Below are positions 1,115 through 38,517 of a DNA stretch of 41,506 nucleotides, in pieces. The DNA is from an uncultured Lachnospiraceae bacterium (GTDB lineage: Bacteria > Bacillota > Clostridia > Lachnospirales > Lachnospiraceae). The DNA lies in contig ONKG01000019.1 of assembly GCA_900318375.1 (NCBI GenBank), forward strand, positions 1 to 41,506. Reading direction: 5' to 3'. The translations under genes and the position numbers were made by a program. How positions within the stretch are numbered: position 1 is the first letter of the stretch; each line of letters opens with the position of its first letter. Below the pieces are notes generated by a model, which saw nothing but the letters and a program-made list of their open reading frames with translations, was not told the DNA's origin and ran no database searches.

Positions 1115-1152
1115 CGTGTACAATTATACAATTTACCCGTGATAAACCTCTT

Positions 1153-1287
1153 GTTACAGTACACGCCCTGTCGAGGGCGTGTACATGTAACGTCGCGTTC
1201 GACGATTCCAATACGCTTCGCGTGCGTCGAACGCCGTAAAACTCCGGTTTAAAACACGTCGAGTTTCAGGTGGGTCTGTACTGTAAC
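1153..1287. mobile_element. MITE-like element, long form, copy A (135 bp)
   Basis: The element has perfect 11-bp terminal inverted repeats, GTTACAGTACA at 1153-1163 and TGTACTGTAAC at 1277-1287. It is flanked by a perfect 8-bp direct repeat AACCTCTT (1145-1152 and 1288-1295), as expected for a target-site duplication. Inside are three hairpins: 1153-1191 (about 17 bp with a one-base bulge, loop GTCG), 1195-1204 with 1225-1234 (perfect 10 bp, loop containing TTCCAATACGC), and 1239-1244 with 1261-1266. It encodes no protein. It lies between the ilvN2 stop and the ilvN promoter. The copy at 7270-7434 has the same order in the opposite orientation. Confidence 0.88.
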
Positions 1288-1323
1288 AACCTCTTCTTTC
1301 CCGACTGGCTGCAGAACAGACCC

Positions 1324-1809
1324 TCAGCCGTGCTCATTGCACTTGGTCATTGCGAGGATGCCGGTGCGTGTGATCTCGACGATACTGAACGACTTGAGGG
1401 TATCCATAAAGATGGCGACGCGCTCGGGTGTGTCGCACATCTCGATCATCATCTGGCTGCGGGACATATCCACGATACGCGCGCCCAAGATCTGGCAGTT
1501 GTCCATGATATCCCTGCGGTTTCCGCGGTTGTATTTGATCTTGACCAGCAGGAGTTCACGGTTGATGCTCTCCGACTCGTCAAAGGTTTTGACTTTAATG
1601 ACGTCCAGTTTTTTATTGAGCTGTTTTTCAATCTGTTCGAGCGTCCTCTCATCGCCGGAACTGACGATGACCATACTGGACACTTCCCGGTCGTCTGTCT
1701 CTCCGACTGTGATGGAGTCGATGTTGAAACAACGGCGCCAGAAGAGGCCTGCGGTCTTGCAGAGGACACCGGCACGGTTCTCGACCAGAATGGAATATAT
1801 TCTTTTCAT
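1324..1809 (-). CDS. ilvH: Acetolactate synthase small subunit, copy next to ilvB
   Basis: This is a second ACT-domain regulatory subunit of acetohydroxyacid synthase, 161 aa. It begins MKRIYSILVENRAGVLCKTA, the canonical start of the family, and its C-terminal domain ends SIVEITRTGILAM. GGAGG lies 10 nt before the ATG at 1809. It sits 96 bp downstream of ilvB and is probably co-transcribed with it; a 7-bp hairpin (1850-1856 with 1861-1867) lies in the gap. The sequence is clearly diverged from the copy at 356-922, for example with FWRRCFNIDSITVG replacing FSRRGYNIESITAG. The symbol ilvH is used only to separate the two; which is functionally IlvN-like cannot be told from sequence. Confidence 0.92.
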   Translation of the reverse strand: MKRIYSILVENRAGVLCKTAGLFWRRCFNIDSITVGETDDREVSSMVIVSSGDERTLEQIEKQLNKKLDVIKVKTFDESESINRELLLVKIKYNRGNRRDIMDNCQILGARIVDMSRSQMMIEMCDTPERVAIFMDTLKSFSIVEITRTGILAMTKCNEHG

Positions 1810-1905
1810 TGACAGTAAACCTCCACTCGTGAAACCAACACCGCTGCGTCAGACCGCTGACGGTCTGTCCGCTGTATGCGGTGTAAGCCCTTCATGCATG
1901 ACCGC

Positions 1906-3561
1906 TCAGCAGAGCTCTTCGCGGTCGACAGTTACCTCAAGAATCATGGATTTGTCCTCGGCGAGGAACTCCTGCAGCGCCGCGTCTGTCTTCCAGCTGT
2001 TGTCCAGCTTCAGATAACCGATACCGTAGGCCTTCGCGATCAGGGACAGATCGGGCATGCCGCCCAGATCGATGACAGAGTATCTGTCTTTATAGTTGTA
2101 GTGCTGATACTGGCGGACCAGACCAAGCACGGTGTTCTTGAGGATGACGAGCTTGACGGGGATGTTGTACTGGGAAATCGTGGCCAGTTCCTGCATAGTC
2201 ATCTGGAAGCCGCCGTCACCGCACACTGCCACGACCTGTTTGCCGGGAGCCGCCACTTTGGCTCCCATGGCTGCCGGAAGGGCATAACCCATGGTCCCCA
2301 TGCCGCCGCTGGTCATAAAACGTCCTCCGCGGGCGACATAGTTGGAACAGGACCACATCTGGTTCTGTCCGACATCAGCGACATAGACCGCATCTTCCTT
2401 CATCGTATAGGAAAGCTGACGGATGAACTCGACCGGATTGATGCCGTCCAGGTCTTTCTGGTGGGCGAGGATATCCTCCTCGCGCTGGAACATACGGCGG
2501 CGCTTGGCGTCGCGCGCATCAGCCTTATAACCGTCGAGCTGATCGATCCAGTCCGTGTAATCGGCTTTGAAATCAATCTTGTTGAACTCATCAAAGACGT
2601 GCCTGATATCACCTACGAGAGGGATCGTGGGGCCGGCATTCTTGCCGATCTCAGCGGGATCAACGTCAATGTGAACCAGGATCTTGTTTTCCATGATCAG
2701 ATCGGGCTGGCTGATCGACCGGTCCGCGACACGGGCGCCGACCATAATGACCATGTCCGCGTTGTTCATGGCCCGATTTCCGTAGGGCTTGCCGTTGTTG
2801 CCCACCATGCCGTAGAACAGAGGGTGTTCTGTGGGAATAGCGGAAAGACCCATCATCGTGCTGACGACGGGGATCCCGTTTTTTTCAACAAACGCAAGGA
2901 CTTCCCTGGCGGCATGGCTCAGATGCACACCGCCTCCCACGCAGATGATGGGGCGCTTTGCCCTTTCGAGCTGGTTGATGACTTTTTTGATCTGTACCGC
3001 ATGGCCTGTCACTGTGGGCTTATAGGTCCGCAGATTTACTGCCTCCGGATAGGAGAAATGACGGATCGTCTGCATCTGTACATCGACCGGAAGGTCGATC
3101 AGGACCGGTCCTCTCCGTCCTGTATTGGCGATATAAAAAGCCTCTTTGACAATTCTGGGAATATCCGAGGCCTCCCGGACAATGTAGCTGTATTTGACAA
3201 AGGATTCGCAGGCGCCGGAAATGTCCGCCTCCTGGAATACATCGCTGCCCATCATCTTGCTGTCCACCTGACCGGTGATACAGACAAGCGGAATACTGTC
3301 CGCGAAGGCAGTCGCAATACCTGTGATCAGATTTGTCGCACCGGGGCCGCTGGTGACGACCGCGACGCCGACCTTTCCTGAAATACGGGCATAGCCGCTG
3401 GCCGCGTGAGCCGCACTCTGTTCCTGACGGATCAGAATTGTGTGGATCTGAGTCTGCAGAATACTGTCATAGAAGGGACAGATCGCCACACCGGGATAGC
3501 CGAATACATATTCGACACCCTCCGCAGCCAGACATTTTACCAAAGCATCCGCACCATTCAT
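1906..3561 (-). CDS. ilvB: Acetolactate synthase large (catalytic) subunit
   Basis: This is the ThDP- and FAD-dependent enzyme that condenses two pyruvates, or pyruvate with 2-oxobutyrate, at the first shared step of branched-chain amino acid synthesis. The 551-aa protein has the N-terminal PYR domain (RQEQSAAHAASGYAR carrying the catalytic Glu), the central domain (RPIICVGGGVHLSHA), and the C-terminal PP domain with the ThDP motif GDGGFQMTMQELAT. The usual GYPGG motif near the N-terminus reads GYPGVAICPFYD, a mild departure. I chose the ATG at 3561 because GGAGG lies 5 nt upstream; a GTG nine codons earlier would put that ribosome site inside the gene. An ACT-type small subunit follows directly. 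Confidence 0.94.
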   Translation of the reverse strand: MNGADALVKCLAAEGVEYVFGYPGVAICPFYDSILQTQIHTILIRQEQSAAHAASGYARISGKVGVAVVTSGPGATNLITGIATAFADSIPLVCITGQVDSKMMGSDVFQEADISGACESFVKYSYIVREASDIPRIVKEAFYIANTGRRGPVLIDLPVDVQMQTIRHFSYPEAVNLRTYKPTVTGHAVQIKKVINQLERAKRPIICVGGGVHLSHAAREVLAFVEKNGIPVVSTMMGLSAIPTEHPLFYGMVGNNGKPYGNRAMNNADMVIMVGARVADRSISQPDLIMENKILVHIDVDPAEIGKNAGPTIPLVGDIRHVFDEFNKIDFKADYTDWIDQLDGYKADARDAKRRRMFQREEDILAHQKDLDGINPVEFIRQLSYTMKEDAVYVADVGQNQMWSCSNYVARGGRFMTSGGMGTMGYALPAAMGAKVAAPGKQVVAVCGDGGFQMTMQELATISQYNIPVKLVILKNTVLGLVRQYQHYNYKDRYSVIDLGGMPDLSLIAKAYGIGYLKLDNSWKTDAALQEFLAEDKSMILEVTVDREELC

Positions 3562-3576
3562 ATGCCCCTCCTTTCC

Positions 3577-3597
3577 GGCAGTTTTCACCTAACTGCC
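3577..3597 (-). promoter_or_regulatory. Hairpin just upstream of the ilvB ribosome-binding site
   Basis: A perfect 7-bp inverted repeat (GGCAGTT at 3577-3583, AACTGCC at 3591-3597) lies in the ilvB leader a few bases before the AAGGAGG site. It could affect translation initiation or act as a protein or RNA switch. No T-box signature (GGGTGG.ACCGCG type) occurs in this leader. Confidence 0.35.
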
Positions 3598-3625
3598 TGA
3601 TGATAAGTATTTTTAAAAACATCGC

Positions 3626-3657
3626 ATTCCGGCGGCACTGAAAAAGCCCGCCGGAAT
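3626..3657 (-). terminator. Rho-independent terminator after tyrS
   Basis: A perfect 10-bp stem (ATTCCGGCGG at 3626-3635, CCGCCGGAAT at 3648-3657) has a 12-nt loop. On the minus strand T5 follows after a 6-nt gap. On the plus strand a run of seven T begins 6 nt after the stem, so it could work in both directions. It ends the der-plsY-tyrS unit. Confidence 0.7.
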
Positions 3658-3736
3658 ACAGCTCTTTTTTTGTAATCTCTTACCGGCCTGCTGCCTTCGC
3701 CGTTCTTCAGGTCTGCTTGCTGATTCCGCGCCTTCC

Positions 3737-4978
3737 TTATTCCACGCGAAGACGTTTGTAGCTCTTCTTGCCGCGCTGCATCAGGATTCCTTTTTCGAGG
3801 CTTTCTTTGCTGAAAACTGTATCGATATCGGTCACCTTTGCACCGTCGACGCTGACACCGCCCTGCTTGACATCGCGGCGGGCGTCGGAACGGGACTTCT
3901 CAAGTCCGCACTTTACAAGCGCTGTCAGGATGCCAAGACCGCCGTCCTCGAGGTCGTCCTGAGTCAGGAGAACTTCCGGAACGTTGGACATATCGCCGGC
4001 ACCGCCCGCCGCAAAGAGGGCTTTGGCGCCTTTCTCGGCCTTGACAGCTTCGTCCTCGCCGTGAACCAGTGTGGTCAGCTCGTGAGCCAGGATCTCCTTG
4101 GCTGTGTTGAGCTGCGCGCCCTCCCACTTGTCCATCTCATCGATCTGCTCCAGAGGCAGGAAAGTCATCATGCGCAGACATTTGAGGACATCAGCATCGC
4201 CGATGTTTCTCCAGTACTGATAGAAATCGTAGGGAGAGGTCTTGTCGGGATCAAGCCAGACCGCACCTTTTGCGGTCTTGCCCATCTTCTTGCCCTCTGA
4301 GTTGAGGAGCAGAGTGATGGTCATGGCGTGTGCATCCTCGCCGAGTTTCTTGCGGATCAGCTCTGTACCGGCCAGCATGTTGCTCCACTGGTCATCGCCG
4401 CCGAACTGCATGTTGCAGCCGTATTTCTCGTACAGGCAGAGGAAATCATAGGCCTGCATGATCATGTAGTTGAATTCGAGGAAGGAAAGCCCCTTCTCCA
4501 TTCTCTGCTCGTAGCATCTGGCGCGGAGCATGTTGTTTACGGAGAAATGAACGCCGATATCGCGGATGAACTCGATGTAATTGAGGTCGCGGAGCCAGTC
4601 GGCATTGTTGACCATCAGGGCTTTGTCGGGACCGAATTCGATAAAACGGCTCATCTGCTTCTTAAAGCACTCACAGTTGTGGTCGATCATATCTACAGTC
4701 ATCATAGAACGAAGATCCTGCCTGCCTGAAGGATCTCCGATCATGCCGGTGCCGCCGCCGACCAGCGCGATCGGCTTGTTGCCGGCTTCCTGGAGACGTT
4801 TCATGAGAAGCAGTGCCATAAAATGACCGACATGAAGGGAATCCGCTGTGGGGTCAAAGCCGATATAGAAGGTCGCCCTGCCGTTGTTGACGAGATCGCG
4901 GATCTGCGCCTCATCCGTCAGCTGGGCCAGAAGTCCTCTTGCCTGAAGTTCCTCAAAAATCTGCATGTTTTTTTCCAT
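3737..4978 (-). CDS. tyrS: Tyrosyl-tRNA synthetase
   Basis: A class I aminoacyl-tRNA synthetase that charges tRNA-Tyr in the cytoplasm. At 413 aa it is the usual bacterial TyrS length. It carries the HIGH-type signature HVGH (residues 49-52) within FDPTADSLHVGH, the tyrosine-pocket region GGDDQWSNMLAGTELIRK, a KMSKS-type motif in the form KMGKT, and a C-terminal S4 RNA-binding domain (about 345-410, SRSDARRDVKQGGVSVDGAKV). The start at 4978 has GGAG 13 nt upstream, a long spacing. I see no T-box leader, which is common for clostridial tyrS; the gene appears to be read from the der promoter through plsY. Confidence 0.96.
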   Translation of the reverse strand: MEKNMQIFEELQARGLLAQLTDEAQIRDLVNNGRATFYIGFDPTADSLHVGHFMALLLMKRLQEAGNKPIALVGGGTGMIGDPSGRQDLRSMMTVDMIDHNCECFKKQMSRFIEFGPDKALMVNNADWLRDLNYIEFIRDIGVHFSVNNMLRARCYEQRMEKGLSFLEFNYMIMQAYDFLCLYEKYGCNMQFGGDDQWSNMLAGTELIRKKLGEDAHAMTITLLLNSEGKKMGKTAKGAVWLDPDKTSPYDFYQYWRNIGDADVLKCLRMMTFLPLEQIDEMDKWEGAQLNTAKEILAHELTTLVHGEDEAVKAEKGAKALFAAGGAGDMSNVPEVLLTQDDLEDGGLGILTALVKCGLEKSRSDARRDVKQGGVSVDGAKVTDIDTVFSKESLEKGILMQRGKKSYKRLRVE

Positions 4979-5096
4979 CGGTGAAAATGTTCTCCTTTTG
5001 TTTCTTTCTATGTAATAACACGTATGTATACCTGCGCCATAGTCTCATGACCGCCAGTGAATGAATAAACTGCCTGTGCGGTCCGGGCGTCTTCAA

Positions 5097-5780
5097 TCAT
5101 TTTTTGTCCAGATCGAGCTGCTCGGAATTGCGCTTGATCAGATAGGTCTTGCGCTCCGTGCCGGACAGAAGACGGCCGATATTGGCGCGGTGCCTGAACC
5201 AGGCCATGGCGGTCAGAAAGCCCTGGATCACAATGATCTCAATAAGCATGGCGTCTGATACTCCGAACATACCTGCTTTTCCTTCGATTACCAGCTGTAT
5301 GAAAAGTCCCAGGTACAGCAGCAGAGATCCCAGGGAAACATATTTTGTGGTCAGATAGGGAATGAAAAAGAGCAGGATGCCGGTGGGGATCATGGTCCAG
5401 TGAAAACCGAAGACAAATCCCGCCATGACAGCAACGCCTTTTCCTCCCTTGAAATTCATATAGAAAGGGTAATCGTGGCCCAGGACAACACCTGCAAAAG
5501 TCCAGACCTTGAGCAGATAGACTGCTTCCGGATGGGATTCCCCGAACAGAAAACCCACGAGCAGCAGGGCAAGAAGGCTCTTGAGCAGGTCGCCCAGAAA
5601 GACGATGAGACCGGCTTTCTTGCCGAGAATGCGCATGGCATTTGTCGTTCCTGCATTTCCGCTTCCATGCTCACGAATATCAATTCCCTTGCTTCTGCCG
5701 AGAATATAAGCTGTCTGAAACATGCCGAATACATACCCGATTACAAGGCAGACGATGCGCAGTAAAACCAGTTGATCCAT
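5097..5780 (-). CDS. plsY: Glycerol-3-phosphate acyltransferase PlsY
   Basis: An integral membrane enzyme that transfers the acyl group from acyl-phosphate (made by PlsX) to glycerol 3-phosphate, giving lysophosphatidate. The 227-aa protein has about five hydrophobic membrane segments and the three conserved family motifs: GSGNAGTTNAMR (about 41-52), GGKGVAVMAG (about 113-122), and HRANIGRLLSGTE near the C-terminus. It is about 20-25 aa longer than usual owing to a polar C-terminal tail. GGAGG lies 7 nt before the ATG. It sits between der and tyrS in one unit; its substrate donor plsX is in this window at 35.3 kb in another operon. Confidence 0.95.
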   Translation of the reverse strand: MDQLVLLRIVCLVIGYVFGMFQTAYILGRSKGIDIREHGSGNAGTTNAMRILGKKAGLIVFLGDLLKSLLALLLVGFLFGESHPEAVYLLKVWTFAGVVLGHDYPFYMNFKGGKGVAVMAGFVFGFHWTMIPTGILLFFIPYLTTKYVSLGSLLLYLGLFIQLVIEGKAGMFGVSDAMLIEIIVIQGFLTAMAWFRHRANIGRLLSGTERKTYLIKRNSEQLDLDKK

Positions 5781-5827
5781 TACACACCTCCATATTTACA
5801 TTGATAGCGTTACTTAAGACAGCGTTA

Positions 5828-7165
5828 CTATTTCTTTTCCGTGCGTTCGCGGATGACAAAACGGAGCGGTGTACCGCGAAATCCGAAGGCATCGCGGATC
5901 CTGTTCTCGATATAACGCTGATAGGAAAAATGCATCAGTTTTTTGTCATTGACAAAGAGAACAAAAGTGGGCGGGCAGACGCCTGCCTGGGTGCCATAGT
6001 AGATCCGGAGCGCCTTGCCCTTGTCGGAGGGGGGCTGCTGCATGATACAGGCCTCGGCGATGATCTCATTGAGGACACCGGTCTGGATGCGCAGGTTCTG
6101 GTTGTCATGCACCATGTCGATCATATCATAGAGCTTGATCAGGCGCTGGCCGGTCTCCGCGGAGATAAACATGAGCTCAGCGTAGTTGAGGAAGGAAAGC
6201 ACCTGACGGATCTTATTCGTGAACTCACTCACGGTGTGATTGTCCTTCTTGATCAGATCCCACTTGTTGACGGCGATAATGACCGCCTTGCCGCGCTCGT
6301 GGGCGATGCCCGCGATCTTTGCATCCTGCTCTGTCACGCCCTCGGAGGCATCAATGACCAGGACTGTGATATCCGAGCGCTCAATAGCGCCGACACTGCG
6401 GGCGATCATGTAGTGCTCGAGGTTTTCCTTGATCTTGTTCCTGCGGCGGATACCCGCTGTATCAATAAAGACGTATTCTTTGCCGTGATAGACGATGCGG
6501 GTGTCGATCGCATCCCTGGTCGTGCCCGCGATATCGGAGACGATCACCCGGTTCTGGCCGATCAGGCGGTTGATGATGGAGGACTTGCCGACATTGGGTT
6601 TTCCGACGATGGCAATGCGCACCGCGTCATCCTCTTCCTCGTCCGCCGAATCATCGGGAAAGTATTTGATCACTTCGTCCAGCATATCGCCTATGCCGGT
6701 CCGGTTGGCGCCGGAAATGGGCCAGGGATCGCCGATGCCGAGATTATAGAACTCGTAGATGTCCGCCATCATTTTGGTCGGGCTGTCCACCTTGTTGACC
6801 ACAAGGACCACAGGCTTTCCGGAGCGCCTGAGCATATCTGCGACCTTGTTGTCCGAGTCCACCATGCCGGTAGAGCGGTCGACCATAAACAGGATCACAT
6901 CTGCCATATCGATCGCCAGCTGTGCCTGCTCCCGCATCTGCGACAAAATGATATCCTTGGAATCAGGCTCGATACCGCCCGTGTCGATCAGTGTAAATTC
7001 TTTATCCAGCCAGCTGCAGTCCGCGTAGATCCTGTCCCGCGTCACACCCGGCGTATCTTCAACGATCGAGATCCGTCTGCCTGCCAGCACGTTAAACAGA
7101 GTGGACTTGCCCACATTTGGCCGGCCGACAACTGCCACGATCGCTTTTCTTTTTCTTTTTGCCAT
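5828..7165 (-). CDS. der: Ribosome-assembly GTPase Der (EngA)
   Basis: Der has two tandem GTPase domains and a C-terminal KH-like domain and acts in 50S subunit assembly. The 445-aa protein shows G1 GRPNVGKS (14-21), DTPGVTRD (37-44), G3 DTGG (61-64) and G4 NKVD (124-127). The second domain has GKPNVGKSS (188-196), DTAG (235-238) and NKWD (300-303). The KH-like domain ends in the conserved GTPLRFVIRERTEKK. The start at 7165 follows AAAGGA. It is the first gene of der-plsY-tyrS and has its own promoter 37 bp upstream. Confidence 0.97.
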   Translation of the reverse strand: MAKRKRKAIVAVVGRPNVGKSTLFNVLAGRRISIVEDTPGVTRDRIYADCSWLDKEFTLIDTGGIEPDSKDIILSQMREQAQLAIDMADVILFMVDRSTGMVDSDNKVADMLRRSGKPVVLVVNKVDSPTKMMADIYEFYNLGIGDPWPISGANRTGIGDMLDEVIKYFPDDSADEEEDDAVRIAIVGKPNVGKSSIINRLIGQNRVIVSDIAGTTRDAIDTRIVYHGKEYVFIDTAGIRRRNKIKENLEHYMIARSVGAIERSDITVLVIDASEGVTEQDAKIAGIAHERGKAVIIAVNKWDLIKKDNHTVSEFTNKIRQVLSFLNYAELMFISAETGQRLIKLYDMIDMVHDNQNLRIQTGVLNEIIAEACIMQQPPSDKGKALRIYYGTQAGVCPPTFVLFVNDKKLMHFSYQRYIENRIRDAFGFRGTPLRFVIRERTEKK

Positions 7166-7201
7166 ATATTATCTGTTCCTTTCCGAAAAGACGTTCTTTT
7201 C

Positions 7202-7230
7202 ATTGTATCTGAGAAACTCCTGCATGGCAA
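7202..7230 (-). promoter_or_regulatory. Sigma-A promoter of der-plsY-tyrS
   Basis: A -35 box TTGCCA (7230-7225) and a -10 box TACAAT (7207-7202) are separated by exactly 17 bp on the minus strand. The start would be near 7195, leaving a leader of about 30 nt. MITE copy B ends 39 bp upstream of the -35 box. Confidence 0.75.
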
Positions 7231-7269
7231 GTAAAAAAACATCCCGCGCAATCCGACACCAGAACTGAA

Positions 7270-7434
7270 GTTATCTGTACAGACCCACCTGAAATTCGAG
7301 GGGTTTTGCGGGCTTTTTCGCGGCTTTTTCGCGCAACCCCCGAGTGTAAGGGCGCGCGGCGCGCGCAGAGCGTATTGGAACCGCCGCGCGCGGCCTTACA
7401 TGTACACGCCCTTCAAGGGGGCGTGTGCTGTAAG
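7270..7434. mobile_element. MITE-like element, long form, copy B (165 bp)
   Basis: This copy is inverted relative to the one at 1153-1287. It is flanked by a perfect 8-bp direct repeat GAACTGAA (7262-7269 and 7435-7442). Shared with copy A, reading the minus strand, are the terminal hairpin (7394-7434), a second hairpin (7352-7361 with 7382-7391, perfect 10 bp) whose loop includes TTCCAATACGC, a third long hairpin over about 7297-7343, and the end CAGGTGGGTCTGTAC. Its termini are less perfect than in copy A (GTTATCTGTACA against CTTACAGCACAC). The stem sequences differ from copy A while pairing is kept. No ORF is present. It lies between the prs terminator and the der promoter. Confidence 0.85.
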
Positions 7435-7443
7435 GAACTGAAA

Positions 7444-7476
7444 GCCCCCGCTCCGGCAGCTGTCCGTAACGGGGGC
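7444..7476 (-). terminator. Probable terminator after prs
   Basis: A stem GCCCCCG (7444-7450) pairs with CGGGGGC (7470-7476), 43 bp after the prs stop. On the minus strand it is followed by TTTC and then MITE B's target duplication, so the U-tract is short; the insertion may have altered it. Confidence 0.5.
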
Positions 7477-7519
7477 AATGATCATCTACGTTCAAAAGTA
7501 GTCTCTGTGCCGGGCCGCA

Positions 7520-8749
7520 TTACTCTGCGGAAACTGTTCCGGCACTCTCAAGGGATTTTCTCTCTCGCGCGTTATAGGCTGTCAGGATCTCACGGATTTT
7601 CTCGGTCTGTACCTTGATACCGGAAATCGCCGCGTCATGATTGAAATAATCGATGATCGTAGCGATATATTTGCTCATATCCGCCATGGCGAACCAGGGT
7701 TTGTCCAGCAGTTCCTGGGGCAGATAGGTGAGGTTGGTGGTGACCAGCTTGTCAAACCAGCCTTCCTCATAGGCTTTGTCAAAGGCTTCGAGTCCGTCTG
7801 TGAACAGTCCGAAGGTCGTGCATACGAAGACGCGTCCCGCGTGCATTTTCTCTTTGAGCTGGCGGGAAGTGTCCAGCATGCTGCCGCCGGAGGAAATCAT
7901 ATCGTCGATGATGATCGCATCCTTGCCGTCGAGCTTTGTTCCCAGGAACTCATGCGCAACGATGGGGTTCTTGCCGCCCACGATCTTTGAATAGTCGCGG
8001 CGTTTATAGAACATTCCGGTATCGGCACCGATGACGTTGGCAAAATAGACGGTCCTGTCCAGAGCGCCTTCATCCGGGCTGATGACCACGACGTGATCCT
8101 TGTCGACCTGAAGATCATCACAGGTGTCAAGCAGAGCGTTCAGGAACTGGTAGGGAGATACGAAATTGTCAAAGTTGTCCAGCGGTGAGACGCTGGCGAT
8201 TCTGGGGTCATGTGCATCGAAGGTGATGAAATTATTGACTCCCATGTTGAAAAGCTCTCCGAGCATCAGAGCTGCGTCGAGTGACTCCCGCGAGCTGCGG
8301 TGGTGCTGACGGCCTTCATAGAGGAAGGGCATGATCACAGTGATCCGCCGGGCCTTGCCCTGGATCGCGGCGATCACCCTCTTGAGATCCTGGAAATGAT
8401 CATCGGGAGACATGTGATTGACAAAGCCGTTCATCTCATAGGTGACGGTCCAGTTCATCACATCCACAAGAATGAACACATCCTTGCCGCGGGCAGATTC
8501 CCGTAATACGGCTCTGCCCTCTCCGGTCTGAAAACGCTCCAGATTGACTTCCATCAGATAACTGTCCTGATAATAGTCTTCACGGTGGGGGACCATTTTG
8601 CCTGTTTCGTCGGCAAGTCTGCGGAACGCAGAGATATAGCTGCTCACCTTTTCTCCCATATCTTTCGCTGACGGGAGCGCGATGATCGCGAGAGGGGCAA
8701 CCGGCATACTTCTGTCAAGCTGCTGATTAAGTGATCGATCTAAAGCCAT
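7520..8749 (-). CDS. prs: Ribose-phosphate pyrophosphokinase (PRPP synthase), long clostridial form
   Basis: This enzyme makes PRPP from ribose 5-phosphate and ATP, feeding purine, pyrimidine, NAD, histidine and tryptophan synthesis. At 409 aa it is longer and more diverged than the classical ~315-aa Prs. The family features are present: a DAHD metal/active-site motif (about 178-181), the loop KRRDYSKIVGGKNP (about 249-262), and the PRPP-binding motif IIDDMISSGGSMLD (about 280-293). I chose the ATG at 8749 because AAGGAG lies 6 nt upstream; a frame extension to 8800 has no ribosome site. It is monocistronic between a candidate promoter at 8837 and the hairpin at 7444. The activity is inferred from motifs; sequence alone does not prove substrate. 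Confidence 0.88.
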   Translation of the reverse strand: MALDRSLNQQLDRSMPVAPLAIIALPSAKDMGEKVSSYISAFRRLADETGKMVPHREDYYQDSYLMEVNLERFQTGEGRAVLRESARGKDVFILVDVMNWTVTYEMNGFVNHMSPDDHFQDLKRVIAAIQGKARRITVIMPFLYEGRQHHRSSRESLDAALMLGELFNMGVNNFITFDAHDPRIASVSPLDNFDNFVSPYQFLNALLDTCDDLQVDKDHVVVISPDEGALDRTVYFANVIGADTGMFYKRRDYSKIVGGKNPIVAHEFLGTKLDGKDAIIIDDMISSGGSMLDTSRQLKEKMHAGRVFVCTTFGLFTDGLEAFDKAYEEGWFDKLVTTNLTYLPQELLDKPWFAMADMSKYIATIIDYFNHDAAISGIKVQTEKIREILTAYNARERKSLESAGTVSAE

Positions 8750-8762
8750 GAGCTCTCCTTCT

Positions 8763-8789
8763 CCGGCAGGTACAGCTGCGCACTGCCGG
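8763..8789 (-). promoter_or_regulatory. Hairpin in the prs leader
   Basis: A perfect 7-bp stem (CCGGCAG at 8763-8769, CTGCCGG at 8783-8789) with a 13-nt loop lies a few bases upstream of the prs ribosome-binding site, an arrangement like that before ilvB. Its role is unknown. Confidence 0.3.
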
Positions 8790-8836
8790 CAGATATACAA
8801 TATATTTCAGCCAAATAAATAATCAGAGACAAGGTT

Positions 8837-8865
8837 ATCATACCGTTTAGAGTCACAAAGCGCAA
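8837..8865 (-). promoter_or_regulatory. Candidate promoter of prs
   Basis: On the minus strand a weak -35 box TTGCGC (8865-8860) and a good -10 box TATGAT (8842-8837) are 17 bp apart. The start would be near 8830, giving a leader of about 80 nt that contains the hairpin at 8763-8789. Confidence 0.5.
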
Positions 8866-8874
8866 GCAGAAAAT

Positions 8875-8892
8875 CCCCGCGTCATACCGGGG
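8875..8892 (-). terminator. Weak candidate terminator after rnhB-yraN
   Basis: A 5-bp GC stem (CCCCG 8875-8879, CGGGG 8888-8892) is followed on the minus strand by ATTTTC. The rest of the 307-bp gap between prs and rnhB-yraN (8893-9056) shows only a short direct repeat GTGTAAATA and no gene. Confidence 0.35.
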
Positions 8893-9056
8893 TCTTCCGC
8901 CGCCTTCCGCGCCGGTCACACACATCCTGCAGGGATATGGATCACAAGGGGGCAGGCAGCCTCAAATACAGGGACTGCACAGGCATTTGCGGACAATGAA
9001 CGCTCCTGCCGGCAGAAAAGTGTAAATAGTGTAAATAACAGCCGTCGGCAGACAAG

Positions 9057-28058: not shown

Positions 28059-28076
28059 CCGGCAAGTTCCCGCTTT

Positions 28077-28115
28077 GTTACTGTCCGCTCCCCCTCAGGG
28101 GCGCGGGCATGTAGC
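28077..28115. mobile_element. MITE-like element, short single-hairpin form, copy C (39 bp)
   Basis: The sequence starts GTTACTGTCCGC and ends GGGCATGTAGC, one imperfect hairpin with a CTCA loop, matching the end hairpin of the long forms (GTTACAGTACACG ... CATGTAAC). It is flanked by a perfect 8-bp direct repeat CCCGCTTT (28069-28076 and 28116-28123). It lies between the ilvA stop and the GH25-like gene. Confidence 0.8.
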
Positions 28116-28141
28116 CCCGCTTTCCGACATCCCGGAAACGA

Positions 28142-29514: not shown

Positions 29515-29543
29515 TATGCAAAATAACCTCTGCCCCGCTTTTT

Positions 29544-30553: not shown

Positions 30554-33500
30554 TTATGAAATATCTTCATCGTTGATCAGGTCCACGCTGACCATGGCCG
30601 ATACGCCCTTCTCCTGCATGGTAATGCCATACAGGCGGTCCGCCTGCTCCATGGTACCGCGTCGGTGTGTGATGACGATAAACTGGGTCCTCTCGGTCAG
30701 TTTGTGGAGATACTGGGCGAAACGGCCTACATTGCTCTCGTCCAGCGCCGCCTCGATCTCGTCGAGCAGGCAGAAGGGTGAGGGTTTGAGGCTCTGGATG
30801 GCAAACAAGAGGGCGATGGCCGTAAGGGCCTTCTCTCCGCCTGAGAGCTGCATCATATTCTGAAGCTTCTTGCCCGGGGGCTGGGCGATCACGCGGACAC
30901 CCGCCTCGAGGATATCCACATCCTCGATCAGTTCCAGTTTTCCACCGCCTCCTCCGAACAGCTCCCTGAAGACCGCATCATAAGCCTTCTGTATATCCGC
31001 GAACTGCTCGCGGAACTGTCTGCGCATTGCCTCGTCGAGCTCTGCCACGATTTTTTCAAGAGATGCGGCAGCCTCGGTGAGGTCGTCATGCTGTCCCTTG
31101 AGGAAGGTGTAGCGCTCCATGAGTTCCTTGTACTCTTCGATGGCACCCACATTGACGCTGCCCAGGGCTTTGATCTGTCCCCGAAGACCGGCAATCTCTT
31201 TTTTCATAGCCGCAAGATCGTTGAGTGTCTCGTCGCGCTGCGCTGCAGCGTCGGCGATCGTGACCTCGTATTCCTCCCACATAAAGGAGGCCTTCTGCTC
31301 GATGGTCTCTTCGAGCCGCTCACGCCTGGAAGTCAGACGGAAAACCTCTTTGTCGAGTCCCGCAATCACTTCCGCAGTGGTCTCCCTGTCCCGGGACGCC
31401 TCATCCTGCTGCCGCTGCAATTCTTCATTATCGTTCCGGAGAAGCTGAAGTTCCTCTTCCTCTTCACTCCGGACATGGTCGGAATCTGCCGCCTCCTGCC
31501 TGAGGCTTTCAATCCGCCTGTTCTTCTCTTCGATCTCCCTGCGGTCACTGTCCGCATTATCGAGGATCTCCTGCAGCTGGGAGCGCAGTGCCTCGAGCTC
31601 GCGGCGGATCCGGTCCGCATTCTGCTGCTGGAAACGCAGCGACTGCTCTGTGCGGCTGTTTTCAAGCTCCAGGGCGGAGAGAGCACTGCTGTCACTCTCC
31701 TCATCCTTCTGCCTCCTGGCGAGTTCTTCCTGCAGATGTGCCGCGGCGGCAGAAAATTCCTCTTCCTTCCTTTCGCTGGCGGAAAGGTCCCGGGCGGCAG
31801 CCGACTGCTGCGCCGCCGTCTGCTCTGCCCGTTCCAGGAGCGCGCGCAGCTCCTGCCGAAGGGTTTCCGCATTTCCGGCCGTCTCGCGGAGTTTTTCCTC
31901 CTCCTGCTGGATCCGGACACGCAGAGTATTCTGGCGGATAAACTGCTCCTGGAGAGAGCGCTTGTTTTCATCGAGTTTTCTGCGCAGGATATTGCGGCTC
32001 TCCTTGGTATCTTCGATAGTCTTTTCCTGCTTCTCAACTTCCTCTTTAAAGCGCTTTGTGCTCGCGGTCAGCTCCTCGATCTCGCGTCTTCTGCCCAGAA
32101 GACTGCTGGCATTGCGATAGGTGCCTCCGCTGATCGCGCCGCCGGGCGCAAAAAGCTCTCCCTCTATGGTCACCATGCGGACACCGTGTCCGGACCGCCT
32201 GGACGCGGCAACTGCGTGGTCGAAGGTGTCCACGATCACGGTTCTTCCCAGCAGGGATACCGCCACATCAGCGCAGCCCTCCGCGGTCTTCACCAGAGAA
32301 TCGGCCGTCCCGATAACGCCCTCCTCATCCAGCACCTTGTGTCCCGCCAGACTCTTATTATTCCGGATACTCGAAAGAGGCAGGAAAGTCGCCCTGCCCG
32401 CCTTTTCACGCTTGAGGATCTCGATCAGACGCCTTGCTGTCTCTTCATCCTTCGTGACTATATTCTGAATGCTGCCGCCAAGGGCAACTTCGATTGCCGT
32501 CTCATATTTTTTCTCCGTGGAGATCAGATCCGCCACGGTTCCGATGATTCCTGTTTCCCGGGATCTTTCCTGCATGACCCGTTTGACGCTCCCCCCGAAG
32601 CCCTCATAGCGCTCCGCAAGGTTCATGATGGCATCGAGCTTGGATTTTTCCTGATGCCAGGAAAACTGCGCCCGCTGCAGGAGTGCATCCGCATCTCCCA
32701 GAGATGTCTTGTGCTCCGCGATCTTATTCTCAATGTCCTTCTGTCCGTCCTGCATGGCGCGGATCTGCGCGCCCACCTGGCGGAATTCCTCCTTGAGAGA
32801 AAGGATGGCATCATCGGTCTGGGTCTGCTCCCCGCTGACCAGAGAGAGTTCCTTCTCCACCTCTGCCCTGCGCGCGTCCTCCTGGGCCTGCAGAGTCTGC
32901 AGACTTGCAAGCCTGGATTTCATCGTTGCCCTGCGGTCCATCTCTTCGAGGATCCCGGCACGTTTTTCCTCCAGTTCCTCCCGCAGACGCCCTACATCTT
33001 CTGCGGAAGCCGAAGCCGCTTCTCTTGCGGCGGACAGGCTTTCCTGCATGGTATCAAAAGCTTCCCGGGCCGCATGGATTTCTCTGGAAAGAGCCTTCTC
33101 CTGGGCGGTCCTCTCCGCGATGTCCGCGTTCAGGATCTTTTCCTGCTCTGCCTGCCGGCGGTTTCTCTGCTGTGCCCCGCGGATCTGTTCCTCGAGGACC
33201 TTGATATCCCCCTCGATCCTGCCGTGTACAATACTGGCGTCCGTGATCCTGCTGCGGACCGACTCGATCCTGCTGTCCAGTTCTCTCCTGCTCTCCTGGA
33301 GCTTCTCGATCCGCTGCCTGAGCAGCTCGCTCCGGGCTCTGGCGTCCTCGAGGTCAGACGCCGCTGTCGTCTCCTGCGAAGTCAGTTCCTCAAGCTGACT
33401 GGTATTTTTCTCATTTTCTATCAAAAAAGCATTTATATCCAACCGCTTTAAAGCGTCGCGCCGCTTGAGATATTCTCTGGCCTTTTCCTGCTGTCTCTCC

Positions 33501-34135
33501 AGGGACGGGATCTGCTTCTCCAGCTCACCCACAATATCCGTGATCCGCGTCAGATTGTCCCTTTCACTCTCAAGGCGCTTTAATGTCTGCTCTTTTCTAT
33601 GTTTGTACTTGACAATACCGGCCGCCTCGTCAAAGAGCGCGCGCCGGTCCTGGGGCTTGTCGGAAAGGATCCTGTCAATCTGGCCCTGCCCGATGATCGA
33701 GTAGCCCTCCTTGCCGATCCCTGTGTCATAGAAGAGCTCATTGACATCTCGAAGACGGCACACCGTCCCGTTGAGCAGATATTCGCTCTCACCGCTTCTG
33801 TAAATGCGGCGGGCTACTGTCACCTCCCTGTAATCGATCGGGAGAGCGCCGTCGGAATTATCCAGCGTGATCGCAACATAAGCAAAGCCAAGCGGCCTGC
33901 GTGCCTGCGTCCCCGCGAAGATAACATCCTGCATAGAAGACCCGCGCAGCTGCTTGACTCTCTGCTCACCCAGCACCCACCGGACTGCATCCGCGACATT
34001 GCTCTTGCCGCTGCCGTTCGGCCCCACAATTCCGGTGATGCCGTTATGAAATTCAAATTTGATCTTGTTTGCAAAGGACTTAAAGCCCTGAATCTCAATA
34101 CTTTTTAAATACAAATCTGCTACTCTTTCAAACAT
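30554..34135 (-). CDS. smc: Chromosome segregation ATPase SMC
   Basis: SMC with ScpA/B forms the condensin that organises and segregates the chromosome. The 1193-aa protein has Walker [10 protein letters not shown] near residue 38, two long coiled-coil arms around a hinge (about 510-660, with [11 protein letters not shown] and [12 protein letters not shown]), and the C-terminal ABC signature [16 protein letters not shown] with Walker [15 protein letters not shown]. The canonical start [15 protein letters not shown] corresponds to a TTG at 34114; the ATG at 34135 adds seven residues (MFERVAD). Neither has a strong ribosome site, so the start is unresolved. It lies between rnc and ftsY as in most firmicutes. 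Confidence 0.96.
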
Positions 34136-34298
34136 GCCGCCCGTCAGGCCGGCATCCGCGGGAAAATAATCGCAATACGACTTTTCCTCGTGTCCGAATG
34201 CTCGTCAAGGCCTCATGGGCATTCGCGCGGTCATGACGGTCCTCAGCTTTTCCCAGGCTTTTTCCCGCTGTAATTTTTGTTATTCTCATGCCGCACGC

Positions 34299-34988
34299 CT
34301 ATCTGGTCCTGGTTCCGCCCAGGGCCGCGTAGGCCGCCTGCTGCTCAGCCGCTTTCTTGGAACGTCCTTCTCCCACACCGCAGCGCCTGCCTTCCAGGAT
34401 GGCCGCCACGCGGAAGCGCTTCTGATGTCCGGGACCGCTCTCTTCGAGTATCTCGTAGCGGACCTCATGTCCTTCCCGCTGCGCGCGTTCCTGCAAAATA
34501 GACTTTGCGTCGTAAAAAAGCTGCTTGTCCTCAAGGTCTGATAGAATAAAAGTCATGATGAACTTACGGGGAATGTCGATTCCGCCGCTGTCCAGATACA
34601 ATGCTCCGATCAGCGCCTCCATGACATCTGATGTAATGGAATCCTTCTCCCGGCCTCCGCTCGCCTCTTCTCCTCTTCCGAGGCGGATGTATGTACCCAG
34701 GGAAATATCCCTGGCGCAGAAGGCCAGAGCGGGTTCACACACAAGGGATGCCCGCAGCTTGGTCAGCTCGCCCTCTTTTTTATCAGGATATGTCCTGTAG
34801 AGGAATTCACTGGAAATCATCTCCAGCACAGCATCACCCAGAAACTCGATTCTCTCATAGTCCTTCAAAGTCTGAATTTTCTGTTCATTTGCAAAAGAAG
34901 TGTGAGTCAGAGCGCACTCGAGCAGATACCGGTCCCTGAACCTGTATCCGATCCGCTCCTCCAGCACTTCCAATGGTGCCTGTATCAT
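34299..34988 (-). CDS. rnc: Ribonuclease III
   Basis: RNase III cuts double-stranded RNA in rRNA precursors and mRNAs. The 229-aa protein has the signature ERIEFLGDAVLEMI (45-58) with the catalytic acids, a downstream conserved segment SDVMEALIGALYLDSG, and a C-terminal double-stranded-RNA-binding domain (about 155-229, ending GVGEGRSKKAAEQQAAYAAL). AAAGGA lies 6 nt before the ATG at 34988. It follows acpP by 38 bp and precedes smc by 163 bp containing a 6-bp hairpin (GAATGC/GCATTC). Confidence 0.97.
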   Translation of the reverse strand: MIQAPLEVLEERIGYRFRDRYLLECALTHTSFANEQKIQTLKDYERIEFLGDAVLEMISSEFLYRTYPDKKEGELTKLRASLVCEPALAFCARDISLGTYIRLGRGEEASGGREKDSITSDVMEALIGALYLDSGGIDIPRKFIMTFILSDLEDKQLFYDAKSILQERAQREGHEVRYEILEESGPGHQKRFRVAAILEGRRCGVGEGRSKKAAEQQAAYAALGGTRTR

Positions 34989-35026
34989 GATGTCCTTTCA
35001 TAAAGGCTCTTTAAAGGCCTGTCAGC

Positions 35027-35266
35027 TCAATCGTCGATTGCATTCTTGATCAGTTCCAGCGCCTGACCGACCGTTGTAACTTTGGAAGCAACGTCGGAAT
35101 CTACTGTAACATCAAACTCTTCCTCAATGCCCATGATGATCTGCGCGACATCAAGTGAATCCGCGCCCAGATCATCGATGAACGTGGTGTCGACAGTGAT
35201 CTCATCTTCATCCACGCCCAGTACATCAACAATGATTGAACATAATTTCTTAAACTCCATATCCAT
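35027..35266 (-). CDS. acpP: Acyl carrier protein
   Basis: ACP carries growing acyl chains on a phosphopantetheine arm for fatty-acid synthesis. The 79-aa acidic protein has the attachment Ser37 in DDLGADSLDVAQI. GGAGG lies 9 nt before the ATG at 35266. It sits between plsX and rnc, the usual order, linking phospholipid precursor supply to this operon. Confidence 0.97.
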   Translation of the reverse strand: MDMEFKKLCSIIVDVLGVDEDEITVDTTFIDDLGADSLDVAQIIMGIEEEFDVTVDSDVASKVTTVGQALELIKNAIDD

Positions 35267-35340
35267 ACCTGTTATCCTCCCTTTGTGTCAGACAAGTGAT
35301 GATATATAAAAAGCAGCTTTGTCACCGGCCGGCAGCCTTA

Positions 35341-36489
35341 TCACTGATCTGCAGATCTTTCCTCTGCAGCGGGAGCCTGGCTTTTCTCCTCCTGAGCAGC
35401 CTTCACCTCCGGAGAAGCTTTCTCTTCCTGAGCAGCTTTTTCTTCCTGAGCAGCTTTCTGTCCTGCTGCTTTTCCGTTCTGTTCCAGGCCCATTTTTTCT
35501 ACAAACTGTCCGTTGATATCCTTTTTCTTAAACACAAAACACTGCTCGATGGCATTTTTAATCTCAACCGCCTCAGCGTTGCCGTGGGTCTTGACCACGA
35601 GTCCGCGCAGTCCCAGCATGGGCGCGCCGCCGTATGAGGAGATATCGAACTCTTTGAGCATTCCCTTGAGCGCAGGCTTGATCATGAGGGCGCCGATCTT
35701 GGAACGCAGTGATGTCATCAGCGCATCCTTGATCTTGTGGATCAGAGTGGAGGCAAGCCCCTCATAGAGCTTGAGGATCACATTGCCGACAAAGGCGTCA
35801 CAGACCACAACATCGGCATCGCCGGCAGGAATATCCCTGGCTTCGATATTGCCTATAAAGTTGATCCCTTCACACTCCTTCAGCAGCGGGAATACCTCCT
35901 TGACCAGCGCATTGCCCTTTTCCTCCTCTGCCCCTACATTGACAAGGGCGACGCGGGGATTCTCGATTCCGGTCATATTTCTCATATAGATGGACCCCAT
36001 CTGCGCAAACTGGACCAGCTGGGAGGCGCGGGCATCCATGTTGGCTCCGCAGTCGACCAGAAGGACCGGTCCCTTGGCAGTGGGCATCAGAGGCGCGAGC
36101 GGAGGGCGCTCGATTCCCCGGATCCTTCCCACAAGGAGCTGTCCGCCGGCAAGTGTCGCTCCGGTACTGCCTGCTGTCACGAAAGCATCGCAGGTCCCTT
36201 CCTTTACAAGCTTCAAGCCTTTGACAATCGATGAGTCCTTCTTCCTGCGGATCGCATTGACCGGCGGCTCCGCCATCTCAATGACCTCCCTGGCATCCAG
36301 GATCTCAACCCTCTCCTCGTCATACTTATATTTTTCCAGCTCCGCGCGGATGACCTCTTCTTTGCCCACAAGCGTCACATGGAGACTTTTTCTCTTCTCC
36401 AGGGCCTGAACAGCGCCCTTTACCGGCTCCGCCGGTGCCAGATCTCCGCCCATTGCGTCAACTGCTACCTTAACGTATTTTTTACTCAT
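35341..36489 (-). CDS. plsX: Phosphate acyltransferase PlsX with repetitive C-terminal tail
   Basis: PlsX makes acyl-phosphate from acyl-ACP, the donor used by PlsY. The protein starts MSKKYVKVAVDAMGGDLAP and contains VTAGSTGATLAGG, LVDCGANMDA and GNIEARDIPAGDADVVVCDAFVGN-type family motifs (residues about 100-245). The enzyme core ends near residue 335; beyond it is a 45-residue Ala/Glu/Lys/Gln-rich tail with three copies of KAAQEEK, probably disordered, making 382 aa. It is followed by acpP, its substrate carrier. Its promoter at 36669 implies a leader of about 170 nt with a perfect 8-bp hairpin (36607-36626) and a direct repeat CCCGGAC. Confidence 0.95.
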   Translation of the reverse strand: MSKKYVKVAVDAMGGDLAPAEPVKGAVQALEKRKSLHVTLVGKEEVIRAELEKYKYDEERVEILDAREVIEMAEPPVNAIRRKKDSSIVKGLKLVKEGTCDAFVTAGSTGATLAGGQLLVGRIRGIERPPLAPLMPTAKGPVLLVDCGANMDARASQLVQFAQMGSIYMRNMTGIENPRVALVNVGAEEEKGNALVKEVFPLLKECEGINFIGNIEARDIPAGDADVVVCDAFVGNVILKLYEGLASTLIHKIKDALMTSLRSKIGALMIKPALKGMLKEFDISSYGGAPMLGLRGLVVKTHGNAEAVEIKNAIEQCFVFKKKDINGQFVEKMGLEQNGKAAGQKAAQEEKAAQEEKASPEVKAAQEEKSQAPAAEERSADQ

Positions 36490-36668
36490 CTTGAACCTTT
36501 TTCCACAAACTTTTCTCTGACCCGGACAAAAAATGTATGCCCGGACCCTTGTCAGACCAAATCAAAAATATACCGGAAATACTGCCTTTCCAGACTGTTC
36601 CCGTCCCTGTAAAAGTCATTTTACAGAAGCCTCTTCTATCCGGTCACGGCATATATTTTCTTACAAAT

Positions 36669-36697
36669 ACTATACTATCACGGTCTCCATATTGCAA
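36669..36697 (-). promoter_or_regulatory. Probable promoter of plsX
   Basis: TTGCAA (36697-36692) and TATAGT (36674-36669) are 17 bp apart on the minus strand, just downstream of the rpmF terminator. I see no FapR-type operator in the leader. Confidence 0.6.
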
Positions 36698-36711
36698 GCG
36701 AGCATGAAGAA

Positions 36712-36741
36712 GCCTCCCGCTGCAAAATAGCAACGGGAGGC
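36712..36741 (-). terminator. Terminator or attenuator after rpmF
   Basis: A perfect 8-bp GC-rich stem (GCCTCCCG 36712-36719, CGGGAGGC 36734-36741), extended by inner pairs, is followed on the minus strand by TTCTTC. The U-run is imperfect, so some read-through into plsX is likely. Confidence 0.7.
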
Positions 36742-36814
36742 CTGCCATAAATCTGTTTTATTCCGGTCCGGACCAGCTGTTATAAAAATGCGGTTGACCC
36801 GCTCAATTACAGGA

Positions 36815-36997
36815 TCAGTCTACGACCTGGATGATCTCCTTCTTATTATAGGAGCCGCACTTAGCGCAAACCCTGTGGGGAACCATAAGAGCACCACACT
36901 TGCTGCACTTCACCAGAGTGGGAGCGGTCATTTTCCAATTAGCTCTCCTTTTATCTCTATGGCTTTTCGAAGATTTATTTTTAGGGCAGATCGACAT
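36815..36997 (-). CDS. rpmF: 50S ribosomal protein L32
   Basis: L32 is a small protein of the large subunit. The 60-aa sequence begins MSICPKNKSSKSHRDKRRAN and carries a four-cysteine zinc ribbon (C31, C34, C44, C47 in CSKCGALMVPHRVCAKCG). I chose the ATG at 36997 because AAGGAGG lies directly upstream; the seven extra codons to 37018 would contain that site. It heads the rpmF-plsX-acpP-rnc-smc-ftsY cluster behind a perfect consensus promoter. Confidence 0.97.
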   Translation of the reverse strand: MSICPKNKSSKSHRDKRRANWKMTAPTLVKCSKCGALMVPHRVCAKCGSYNKKEIIQVVD

Positions 36998-37035
36998 GAT
37001 AACACCTCCTTCTTTCAAAGAATCACACGAAGGAT

Positions 37036-37064
37036 ATTATATGGACGCCGCGTCGATTTGTCAA
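37036..37064 (-). promoter_or_regulatory. Perfect consensus sigma-A promoter of rpmF
   Basis: TTGACA (37064-37059) and TATAAT (37041-37036) on the minus strand are exactly 17 bp apart, both boxes perfect. The start near 37029 gives a 32-nt leader. A promoter this strong suits a ribosomal protein gene. Confidence 0.95.
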
Positions 37065-37298
37065 CAGTTTTTTCTTTACAAAAACCTGTTTTTTCCAAAC
37101 CTGTCCCGAACCTGTTTCCAGACTGGTTTTTCCGGCATTTTCCGCTTGTTTTTTTCCGGACGCTGATCCATCACTTTCCCCGGACGCTTGTCAGAAGCGG
37201 TTTTTCGGACTCTTTTCCAGGCGGATTATCTGTTTATTATCCGGTGCCGTTTTCTCAGTTCAGACGAGTCCCTGTGCAGATTCACCGATCAGAAGAAC
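37065..37298 (-). other. Gene-free spacer between pdxA2 and rpmF with short degenerate repeats
   Basis: No gene or clear terminator is visible. AACCTGT occurs three times at 13-15 bp spacing at about 37080-37121, and CCGGACGCT occurs twice at about 37156-37190. The region is T/C-rich on the plus strand. Similar short-period degenerate repeats lie upstream of rbgA and between ftsY and smc. Confidence 0.5.
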
Positions 37299-38306
37299 TC
37301 ATGCTTTTACAAAGAAGGGAGCGTATTTGGCGGCGAGGAGAATGGCTTCCGCCATGCTGATCTCGCTGACGATGCCCTTGCCGGCGATATCAAAGGCTGT
37401 GCCGTGGTCCACGGAAGTACGCAGGATGGGCATGCCGTTGGTGATGGAGATGGTACGGTCAAAGTCAAGGGTCTTGGTCGCGATGTGGCCCTGATCGTGA
37501 TACAGGGACAGGACGCTGTTGTAGCGGCCAAGAGCTGCCTGATGGAAAACGGAGTCCGCGCCGATGGGTCCGGTCACGGGATAGCCTTCCGCCTTGAGTT
37601 CTTCCACGGCAGGTGTGATCTCGTTGACTTCCTCCCAGCCGAAGAGGCCGTGCTCGCCGCAGTGAGGGTTGAGGCCGGCAATGGCCATAGTTCCCTCTGT
37701 GACTCCCAGGCGCCTGAGGGCTGCAAGACTCTCCTTGACACAAGCCTTGATGTTGTCTTTTGTGATGTCATCCAGCATAGCCCGCAGGGATTTGTGACGG
37801 GTCAGGAAGAAGACACGCAGACCGTTTGTCTCGAACATGGTCAGCGGATCGGGTGTATTGGTCAGGGCACCGAAGATCTCGGTGTGGCCGATGAAAGGAA
37901 CTTCCGCTGCGTGCAGGGCTTCCTTGTTGATCGGAGTTGTGGCGACAGCATCCGCCTCGCCGTTCATGGCAAGCTCGATGCTTTTCTTGATGTAGGCAAA
38001 AGCAGCCTTGCCGCACATAGCCTGGACAACGCCGTAGGAGAACTGAGACTGGTCGATGTTATCAAGGTCGATCAGGTTCAGGATGCCGAAACGATAATCG
38101 CCGTCCGCGGGTTTTTCCACGACATTGATCTTGAGGTCTGCGCCCACGATGCCGATCGCTTTTTCCATGACCTGACGGTCGCCGATCACGATCACATTTG
38201 CTGCATCATTGACTTTTTCCAGCGCGCATGCCTTTGCCACGATCTCGGGGCCTACACCGGCGGGATCACCAATCGGTACTGCAATCATAGGTTTTTTCTC
38301 TGCCAT
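37299..38306 (-). CDS. pdxA2: PdxA2-type 4-phospho-D-threonate/erythronate dehydrogenase
   Basis: A PdxA-family NAD-dependent oxidative decarboxylase of 335 aa. The family motifs are clear: [10 protein letters not shown] (about 13-22), [10 protein letters not shown], a metal-ligand His in [20 protein letters not shown], and [15 protein letters not shown]. In pyridoxal synthesis PdxA oxidises 4-phosphohydroxythreonine. Paired with a DUF1537 kinase, as here, PdxA2 instead acts on 4-phospho-D-threonate or D-erythronate, giving dihydroxyacetone phosphate and CO2. No other pyridoxine gene is nearby, so the catabolic role is favoured. GGGAGG precedes the ATG at 38306. Substrate stereochemistry cannot be read from sequence. 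Confidence 0.88.
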
Positions 38307-38381
38307 TTTAATTCCTCCCTTATATATCTGCAGTTATAAAAGTCATCTGGGTAAAAAATGTCCGCAGAGGCCCGGCTTTTC

Positions 38382-38421
38382 GTCACAGTACACGAACCCG
38401 TCAAGGCCATGTTCATGTAAC
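38382..38421. mobile_element. MITE-like element, short single-hairpin form, copy D (40 bp)
   Basis: It starts GTCACAGTACACG and ends GTTCATGTAAC, an imperfect hairpin closely matching the end hairpin of the long forms. Flanks GGCTTTTC (38374-38381) and GTCTTTTC (38422-38429) match at 7 of 8 positions, consistent with an older target duplication. It lies between the kinase and pdxA2 genes. Confidence 0.7.
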
Positions 38422-38517
38422 GTCTTTTCTGATTTTAACATGTTTTACTTACGAACGGCCAAACCGCGCAGACTTTTTCAGAACAAATCTGATAAACAAA
38501 GATCAGATAAACGCGAA

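Follow-up and report, generated by a model that had tools for sequence, protein, structure and literature searches.

Within the 41,506-nucleotide stretch of DNA analysed here (the window), from an uncultured Lachnospiraceae bacterium, lie four small repeats with related ends, each bounded by an 8-bp direct repeat. Copy 1, a long form of 135 bp on the forward strand (1153-1287), comprises a left hairpin (1153-1191), a second hairpin, a third hairpin that is partly deleted in comparison with the full length of 150-154 bp, and the right end TGTACTGTAAC; it is flanked by AACCTCTT at 1145-1152 and again at 1288-1295. The second long form, copy 2 (165 bp, 7270-7434), is reversed and on the minus strand, with its left-end hairpin at 7395-7434 and GAACTGAA at both 7262-7269 and 7435-7442; its ends have diverged, and it is 86% identical to the composite query for a second subfamily. 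Copy 3 (28077-28115, between CCCGCTTT at 28069-28076 and 28116-28123) is a short form, a single 39-bp hairpin with strong folding (z -5.66), and a long-form body, looked for on both its sides, was not detected. The other short form, copy 4 (40 bp, 38382-38421), is a decayed hairpin whose folding, with a z of -0.53, is no better than that of shuffled sequence, and the sequences beside it, GGCTTTTC at 38374-38381 and GTCTTTTC at 38422-38429, agree at 7/8 positions. When re-derived, coordinates and duplications came out as claimed in an earlier, sequence-only reading of this DNA, i.e. four copies with related ends, the flanking repeats being perfect in three and 7/8 in one. At 171-358 the window also matches the Rfam family RF01699, Clostridiales-1 RNA, with 51.6 bits against a cut-off of 48.

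The family to which these copies belong is short (~150 bp), multi-copy and without a transposase gene. In its full-length form of ~150-155 bp, a near-palindromic left-end hairpin is followed by two further hairpins and the right end, with terminal inverted repeats GTTACWGTNCA / TGNACWGTAAC at both ends, a pattern that doubled as a search criterion. With copy 1 as query, G000, the genome to which the window belongs (3.93 Mb in 193 contigs), gives 33 matches. A full-length composite query detects members in 8 of the 37 genomes searched out of 62 of the same genus and in 0 of 24 genomes of other genera, and an order-wide draw of 294 more genomes, which may overlap those searched before, gave no match among the 20 genomes listed, with scoring limited to two candidates in each. 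A covariance model built on the left hairpin yields at least 54, 131, 127 and 110 matches in G000, G008, G010 and G028 respectively, counting both strands of the palindrome and scoring no more than 150 candidates in any genome; the four short copies are among the seeds of this model (R1), and their high scores are therefore not independent evidence. An exact search of viral contigs with one hairpin pattern gave 0 matches. Distant GTTACAGTACA pairs (G010:C75, G028:C51 and G008:C36) were considered as an autonomous element and set aside, the finder giving two separate miniature elements, none and one, respectively. A second class of miniature elements, 136-207 bp and with both ends like IS66-type ends though without the left hairpin, occurs in G010 and G014 (e.g. 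L198:2565-2727, L207:2522-2717 and L173:1454-1525), the 72-bp copy at L173 having TTTTTACC at both flanks.

That the copies are products of transposition, and the family mobile, had been claimed from the four pairs of flanking repeats, with the proposal that the whole genome and its relatives be searched for the hairpin and the flanks of hits tested. In a sample of 40 hairpin hits from other genomes, chosen without knowledge of their flanks (already fetched places being excluded and potential short forms of 36-41 nt favoured), a duplication at the GTAAC-like right end is perfect in 14 and at least 7/8 in 20, as against 0 and 1, respectively, of 2280 shifted controls. The 20 hits without a duplication by this right-end test include some that look decayed or truncated and one, L291, that has a 7/8 duplication when read as a short form. 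When both ends were demanded together with a duplication of no more than one mismatch, the finder gave 51 rows, some of them duplicates, and 45 different element sequences, 131-207 bp in length, of which 35 have perfect duplications; having been selected for duplications, these rows and elements give no rate, and some of the 45 are of the second class. G028 carries four sequence-identical 153-bp copies (L113, L116, L122 and L124) with four different perfect duplications, CATAGCTG, CTGTATTT, AGGTTTCT and TCGGATTC, respectively, on both sides of each. Unoccupied sites in relatives, which had likewise been proposed as a check, were sought by searching five G008 insertion sites whole in ten relatives, and the junction was readable at two. 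The site of the G008 copy L080 reads as unoccupied in G000 and G076, with both sides well aligned and a single GAATATAC in G000 where G008 has AAATATAC twice; that of L131 reads as unoccupied in G011, where the alignment left of the junction covers only ~20 bases. Controls, unoccupied sites and identical copies with different duplications uphold the claim: the four window repeats are real miniature transposons (MITEs), a known kind of element.

The pairing of the hairpins is kept. Across 31 long forms, 97.8% of the cells in the three helices are paired, as compared with 38-58% when the structures are slid, and both sides change in 9 of 29 pairs. The covariation score is reached by 0 of 500 shuffles and the count of further pair types, which is not unusual, by 101 of 500, related sequences being able to exceed shuffles without structure. 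Palindrome-preserving changes can arise by template switching within hairpins, and as the reason for the kept pairing both such template switching and selection, on DNA or RNA, fit; any role assigned to the hairpins is one that we infer. Whole hairpins are also swapped or nested between copies. The long form accordingly presents transposon hairpins kept by compensatory change together with hairpin swapping, and poses the question of whether they are selected for transposition or made by template switching. A known RNA family was considered and rejected, an Rfam search giving no family match for the element and a sole hit, with E 0.5, outside it. In L112, L091, L106 and L131 there are extra hairpins (e.g. 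AACAAAGCTTCGCATTG and AACACACT...AGTGTGTT) inside hairpin 2, which look as if hairpins had been inserted into hairpins.

No partner for the repeats had been seen in the window, and the candidate does lie outside it. The full-length insertion sequence with related ends, the search for which had been suggested, is a whole 2628-bp IS66-like element in G008 (L194:1877-4504), with close copies in G000. Its duplication, CAAAAATT, stands at both sides, its two ends agree at 19 of 22 positions, and it encodes ORFs of 568 and 124 aa. The 568-aa protein passes the cut-off for Pfam PF03050 (DDE_Tnp_IS66; 41.6 bits against 23.1); with the NCBIfam IS66 equivalog NF033517 it aligns over positions 1-386 of 387 and, at 110.5 bits, scores below the cut-off of 180, so that it is a divergent IS66 relative and not a typical member. 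Solved structures gave no match at E <= 0.1. The 124-aa ORF (L194:3800-4174, start MGIVKYKNPKTGIIYCYESTPKWDPEKGQARPTRTYLGRWDEETQ) adjoins the transposase and has no Pfam or NCBIfam match, though over its first 49-65 residues it resembles part of the sequence at 9 other IS66 loci of this genus. IS66 ends begin GTAA, and the family has tnpA/tnpB accessory genes; the partner ends begin GTTAC (GTAAC in L223/L225). A test for ends and duplications on 32 loci gave a result in six (L194 and the IS66 loci L223, L225, L226, L227 and L228), all of them with GT(T/A)AC ends and 8/8 duplications. Plasmid records with relatives number 71, all below 60% identity, and among the 8 listed six are annotated as IS66 family transposase and one as transposase IS66.

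In the window's own genome the element is seen at contig ends, end A (GTTACAGTTCAGGCCC...) on six contigs and end B (GTTACTGTTCAGGCCCACC...) on five, and 8/8 duplications pair four of the five B ends with four of the six A ends: C81 with C182 (GAAAATTC), C135 with C108 (TTCTGAGA), C122 with C67 (TGCTATCA) and C145 with C69 (GGCTGCGG). The contig ends of C73, C128 and C130 are left unpaired. C130 encodes residues 38-511 of the transposase at 93% identity and carries another piece, for residues 541-568; C90 begins inside another transposase copy (residues 5-69, 89%).

The sequence-only reading had named IS66, IS256 and ISL3 as groups whose 8-bp duplications would suit; the PF03050 match, the similarity of ends and the 8-bp duplications single out IS66 as the likely source of transposase. 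The divergent IS66-type element (~2.6 kb, ends GTTACWGTTCAGRCCC..., 8-bp duplications) would supply the enzyme in trans, and the MITE right end resembles the terminus of this element over ~25 bp. Against the G000/G008 element ends the MITE right end matches at 20, 21, 20 and 22 of 25 bases, the own-genome ends giving 20-21 of 25; the left end matches only over ~11 bp, with 15-17 of 25 overall. That this transposase moves these MITEs is what we infer. A close transposase (E <= 1e-5) was not found in four of the eight MITE-carrying genomes, G010, G011, G018 and G028, although completeness is given as 97-98% for G018 and G028, and PF03050 has no match anywhere in G010 or G018; in these four the partner is missing, unassembled or a different element.

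To characterize the 38-40-bp copies, 37 of the 39 distinct places at which the hairpin occurs among the 150 scored of 1366 candidates in the window's own genome were classified, and for other genomes the 40-hit sample was used. A long-form body is nearby at 16 of the 37 places (C77:22692 being counted as long owing to its neighbour) and lacking at 21, where a hairpin counts as standalone if no body match reaches E <= 1e-3, and L401 and L412 show a short body stretch by eye. Of these standalone hairpins 4/21 are flanked, exactly at their ends, by a duplication with one mismatch or none, as against 14/7531 shifted controls, and the short-copy duplications are therefore real. The four are 28077 and C124:4867 (both 8/8) and 38382 and C144:47750 (both 7/8). 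Their mutual identity is 0.62-0.79, and that to the nearest long-form left hairpin among 33 is 0.82-0.92; long-form hairpins have near neighbours, with a mean of 0.97. The C144 copy, a near-perfect palindrome, recurs at the same site in G010 inside an 851-bp stretch of 97.4% identity, and so represents one insertion. The copy 3 hairpin is absent from the diverged orthologous spacer in G011 and G076, where divergence precludes a base-exact unoccupied site. No duplication was found at L288, L311 and L316, standalone hairpins of other genomes, and a search among the places examined in the own genome and the 40-hit sample for short copies that are nearly identical yet sit at different sites within different duplications found none. 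Duplications do flank other shortened derivatives, of 48 bp (L302, TAACCGCC), 57 bp (L119), 97 bp (L001) and 131-135 bp. The 851-bp stretch is itself of note, since G000:C144 ~47750 and G010:C43 ~13432 share it at 97.4%, yet the same comparison beside the 28077 site gives only 76%; perhaps it reflects recent horizontal transfer.

In the long form TGTAAC stands at the end of hairpin 1 and again at the right end, with the other hairpins between, and a deletion between these repeats gives exactly a short form with both duplications. After insertion, long copies would thus lose hairpins 2 and 3 by TGTAAC-TGTAAC deletion, the duplications being retained. With this route, the graded derivatives and the proximity of each short form to a long-form hairpin, the 38-40-bp copies are most likely worn-down remnants of the long form, as judged from the sequences. 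Very probably, then, the joint explanation holds: MITEs of one family, served in trans by an IS66-type transposase, with short copies that are deletion remnants.

Against this explanation several others are to be weighed. That the 8-bp repeats are due to chance or are assembly artefacts, for which the fragmentation of the host assembly into 193 contigs might speak, is scarcely credible given the shifted controls, the unoccupied sites, the identical copies with different duplications and the presence of the family in seven more genomes, which refute it. The kept pairing, with its doubly changed pairs, the drop when structures are slid and a covariation score that no shuffle reaches, would also suit hairpins conserved as a functional structured RNA, e.g. 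a regulatory one, with mobility secondary. Nevertheless, the element is without an Rfam match, the pair types are no more numerous than in shuffles, template switching preserves palindromes too, hairpins are swapped or inserted between copies and the distribution is patchy (8 of 37 genomes), all of which make a structured RNA very unlikely. Less far-fetched, though still unlikely, is mobilization by a different transposase, such as that of the IS66 subgroup with ends GTTACAGTTCACGCC in G030/G063, or of an unbinned element: GTTACAGTACACGCCC, the left end of the MITE, is similar to the ends seen at L227/L228 (GTTACAGTTCACGCC...), and the four carrier genomes in which a close G008/G000-type transposase was not found point the same way. 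On the other side, of all the ends compared, those of the G000/G008 element give the best fit to the MITE right end (20-22 of 25), and several copies of that type of element, with matching duplications, are present in the window's own genome.

The remaining alternative is a minimal transposon consisting of the 39-40-bp terminal hairpin, which would move alone with its two arms serving as the two ends. The duplications at the exact ends of four of the 21 standalone own-genome hairpins are what it would predict, both arms end in GTTAC/GTAAC-like sequence, the C144 copy is close to a perfect palindrome, and groups of short copies may lie outside the 150 of 1366 own-genome candidates scored and the 40-hit sample. 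Set against this, each of the four is nearer a long-form hairpin than another short copy, no near-identical group at different sites was found among the places examined, other shortened derivatives (e.g. 48 bp at L302 and 97 bp at L001) carry duplications as well, L288, L311 and L316 stand alone without one, and the C144 copy counts once. Two ends 39 bp apart are also hard to juxtapose as duplex DNA. A hairpin transposing by itself is accordingly improbable, and its more specific version, in which the ~39-bp hairpin is a complete transposon with the IS66-type transposase reading both arms as ends, perhaps as a cruciform or single strand, is distinctly so; if true, it would be among the smallest of mobile DNAs. 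The positive evidence for self-mobile 40-bp hairpins consists of the duplications themselves, and their movement is possible. Of what had been proposed for the short forms, it is seen that they correspond to the long form's terminal hairpin, and the idea of a ~40-bp hairpin moving alone finds no support, the duplication-flanked short copies being few, mutually unlike, nearer to long forms and explicable by deletion. Very short duplication-flanked hairpins can, as a general caution, be deletion remnants and not minimal transposons.

The preferred reading, MITEs with an IS66-type partner and short remnants, has parallels elsewhere. Like other bacterial MITEs (QMITE1 and QMITE2 of Coxiella burnetii, Chunjie, MITEPsy1, MITEPye1), as far as described in a review (PMC10969869), in an account of a MITE with in vivo transposition (PMC3189936) and in one of an IS1182-type MITE (PMC11578231), the present family is small, non-coding and multi-copy, with terminal inverted repeats, direct repeats and stem-loop folding. 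It differs in its IS66-like transposase source, its three hairpins with compensatory changes and its occurrence in one genus only among the genomes tested. Its gradient of truncated sizes recalls QMITE1, which is given in the review as 39 to 400 bp (PMC10969869), a figure against which the earlier view of ~40 bp as unusually small does not stand. The partner shares 8-bp duplications, a similar size and the PF03050 domain with the IS66 family, of which ISPpa5a and ISPpa7 are tabulated with 8-bp duplications and ~2.7-2.8 kb (PMC3281130); in the element here the ends start GTTAC, the 124-aa accessory ORF is without a Pfam or NCBIfam match and the score falls below the NCBIfam IS66 cut-off. REP palindromes, associated with tyrosine transposases, are comparable in length, 20-40 bp in the accounts drawn on (PMC2817692, PMC3733652), whereas the hairpins here can be bounded by 8-bp duplications and the family has terminal inverted repeats like those of IS66-type elements. 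What was drawn on from PMC9769881 and PMC5896051 holds nothing decisive for this family. Among the matches listed from the MITE, IS66 and Lachnospiraceae literature, judged by title or the start of the abstract, no paper on an IS66-derived MITE was found. MITEs as a kind are already known; what is gained here is the identification of this family together with its likely source in an IS66-type element. A different dispersed repeat, GGGGACGGTTCTTTGTCTCC-like, is present in L053, in the left flank of L104 and in L410, in the own genome and in those of relatives.
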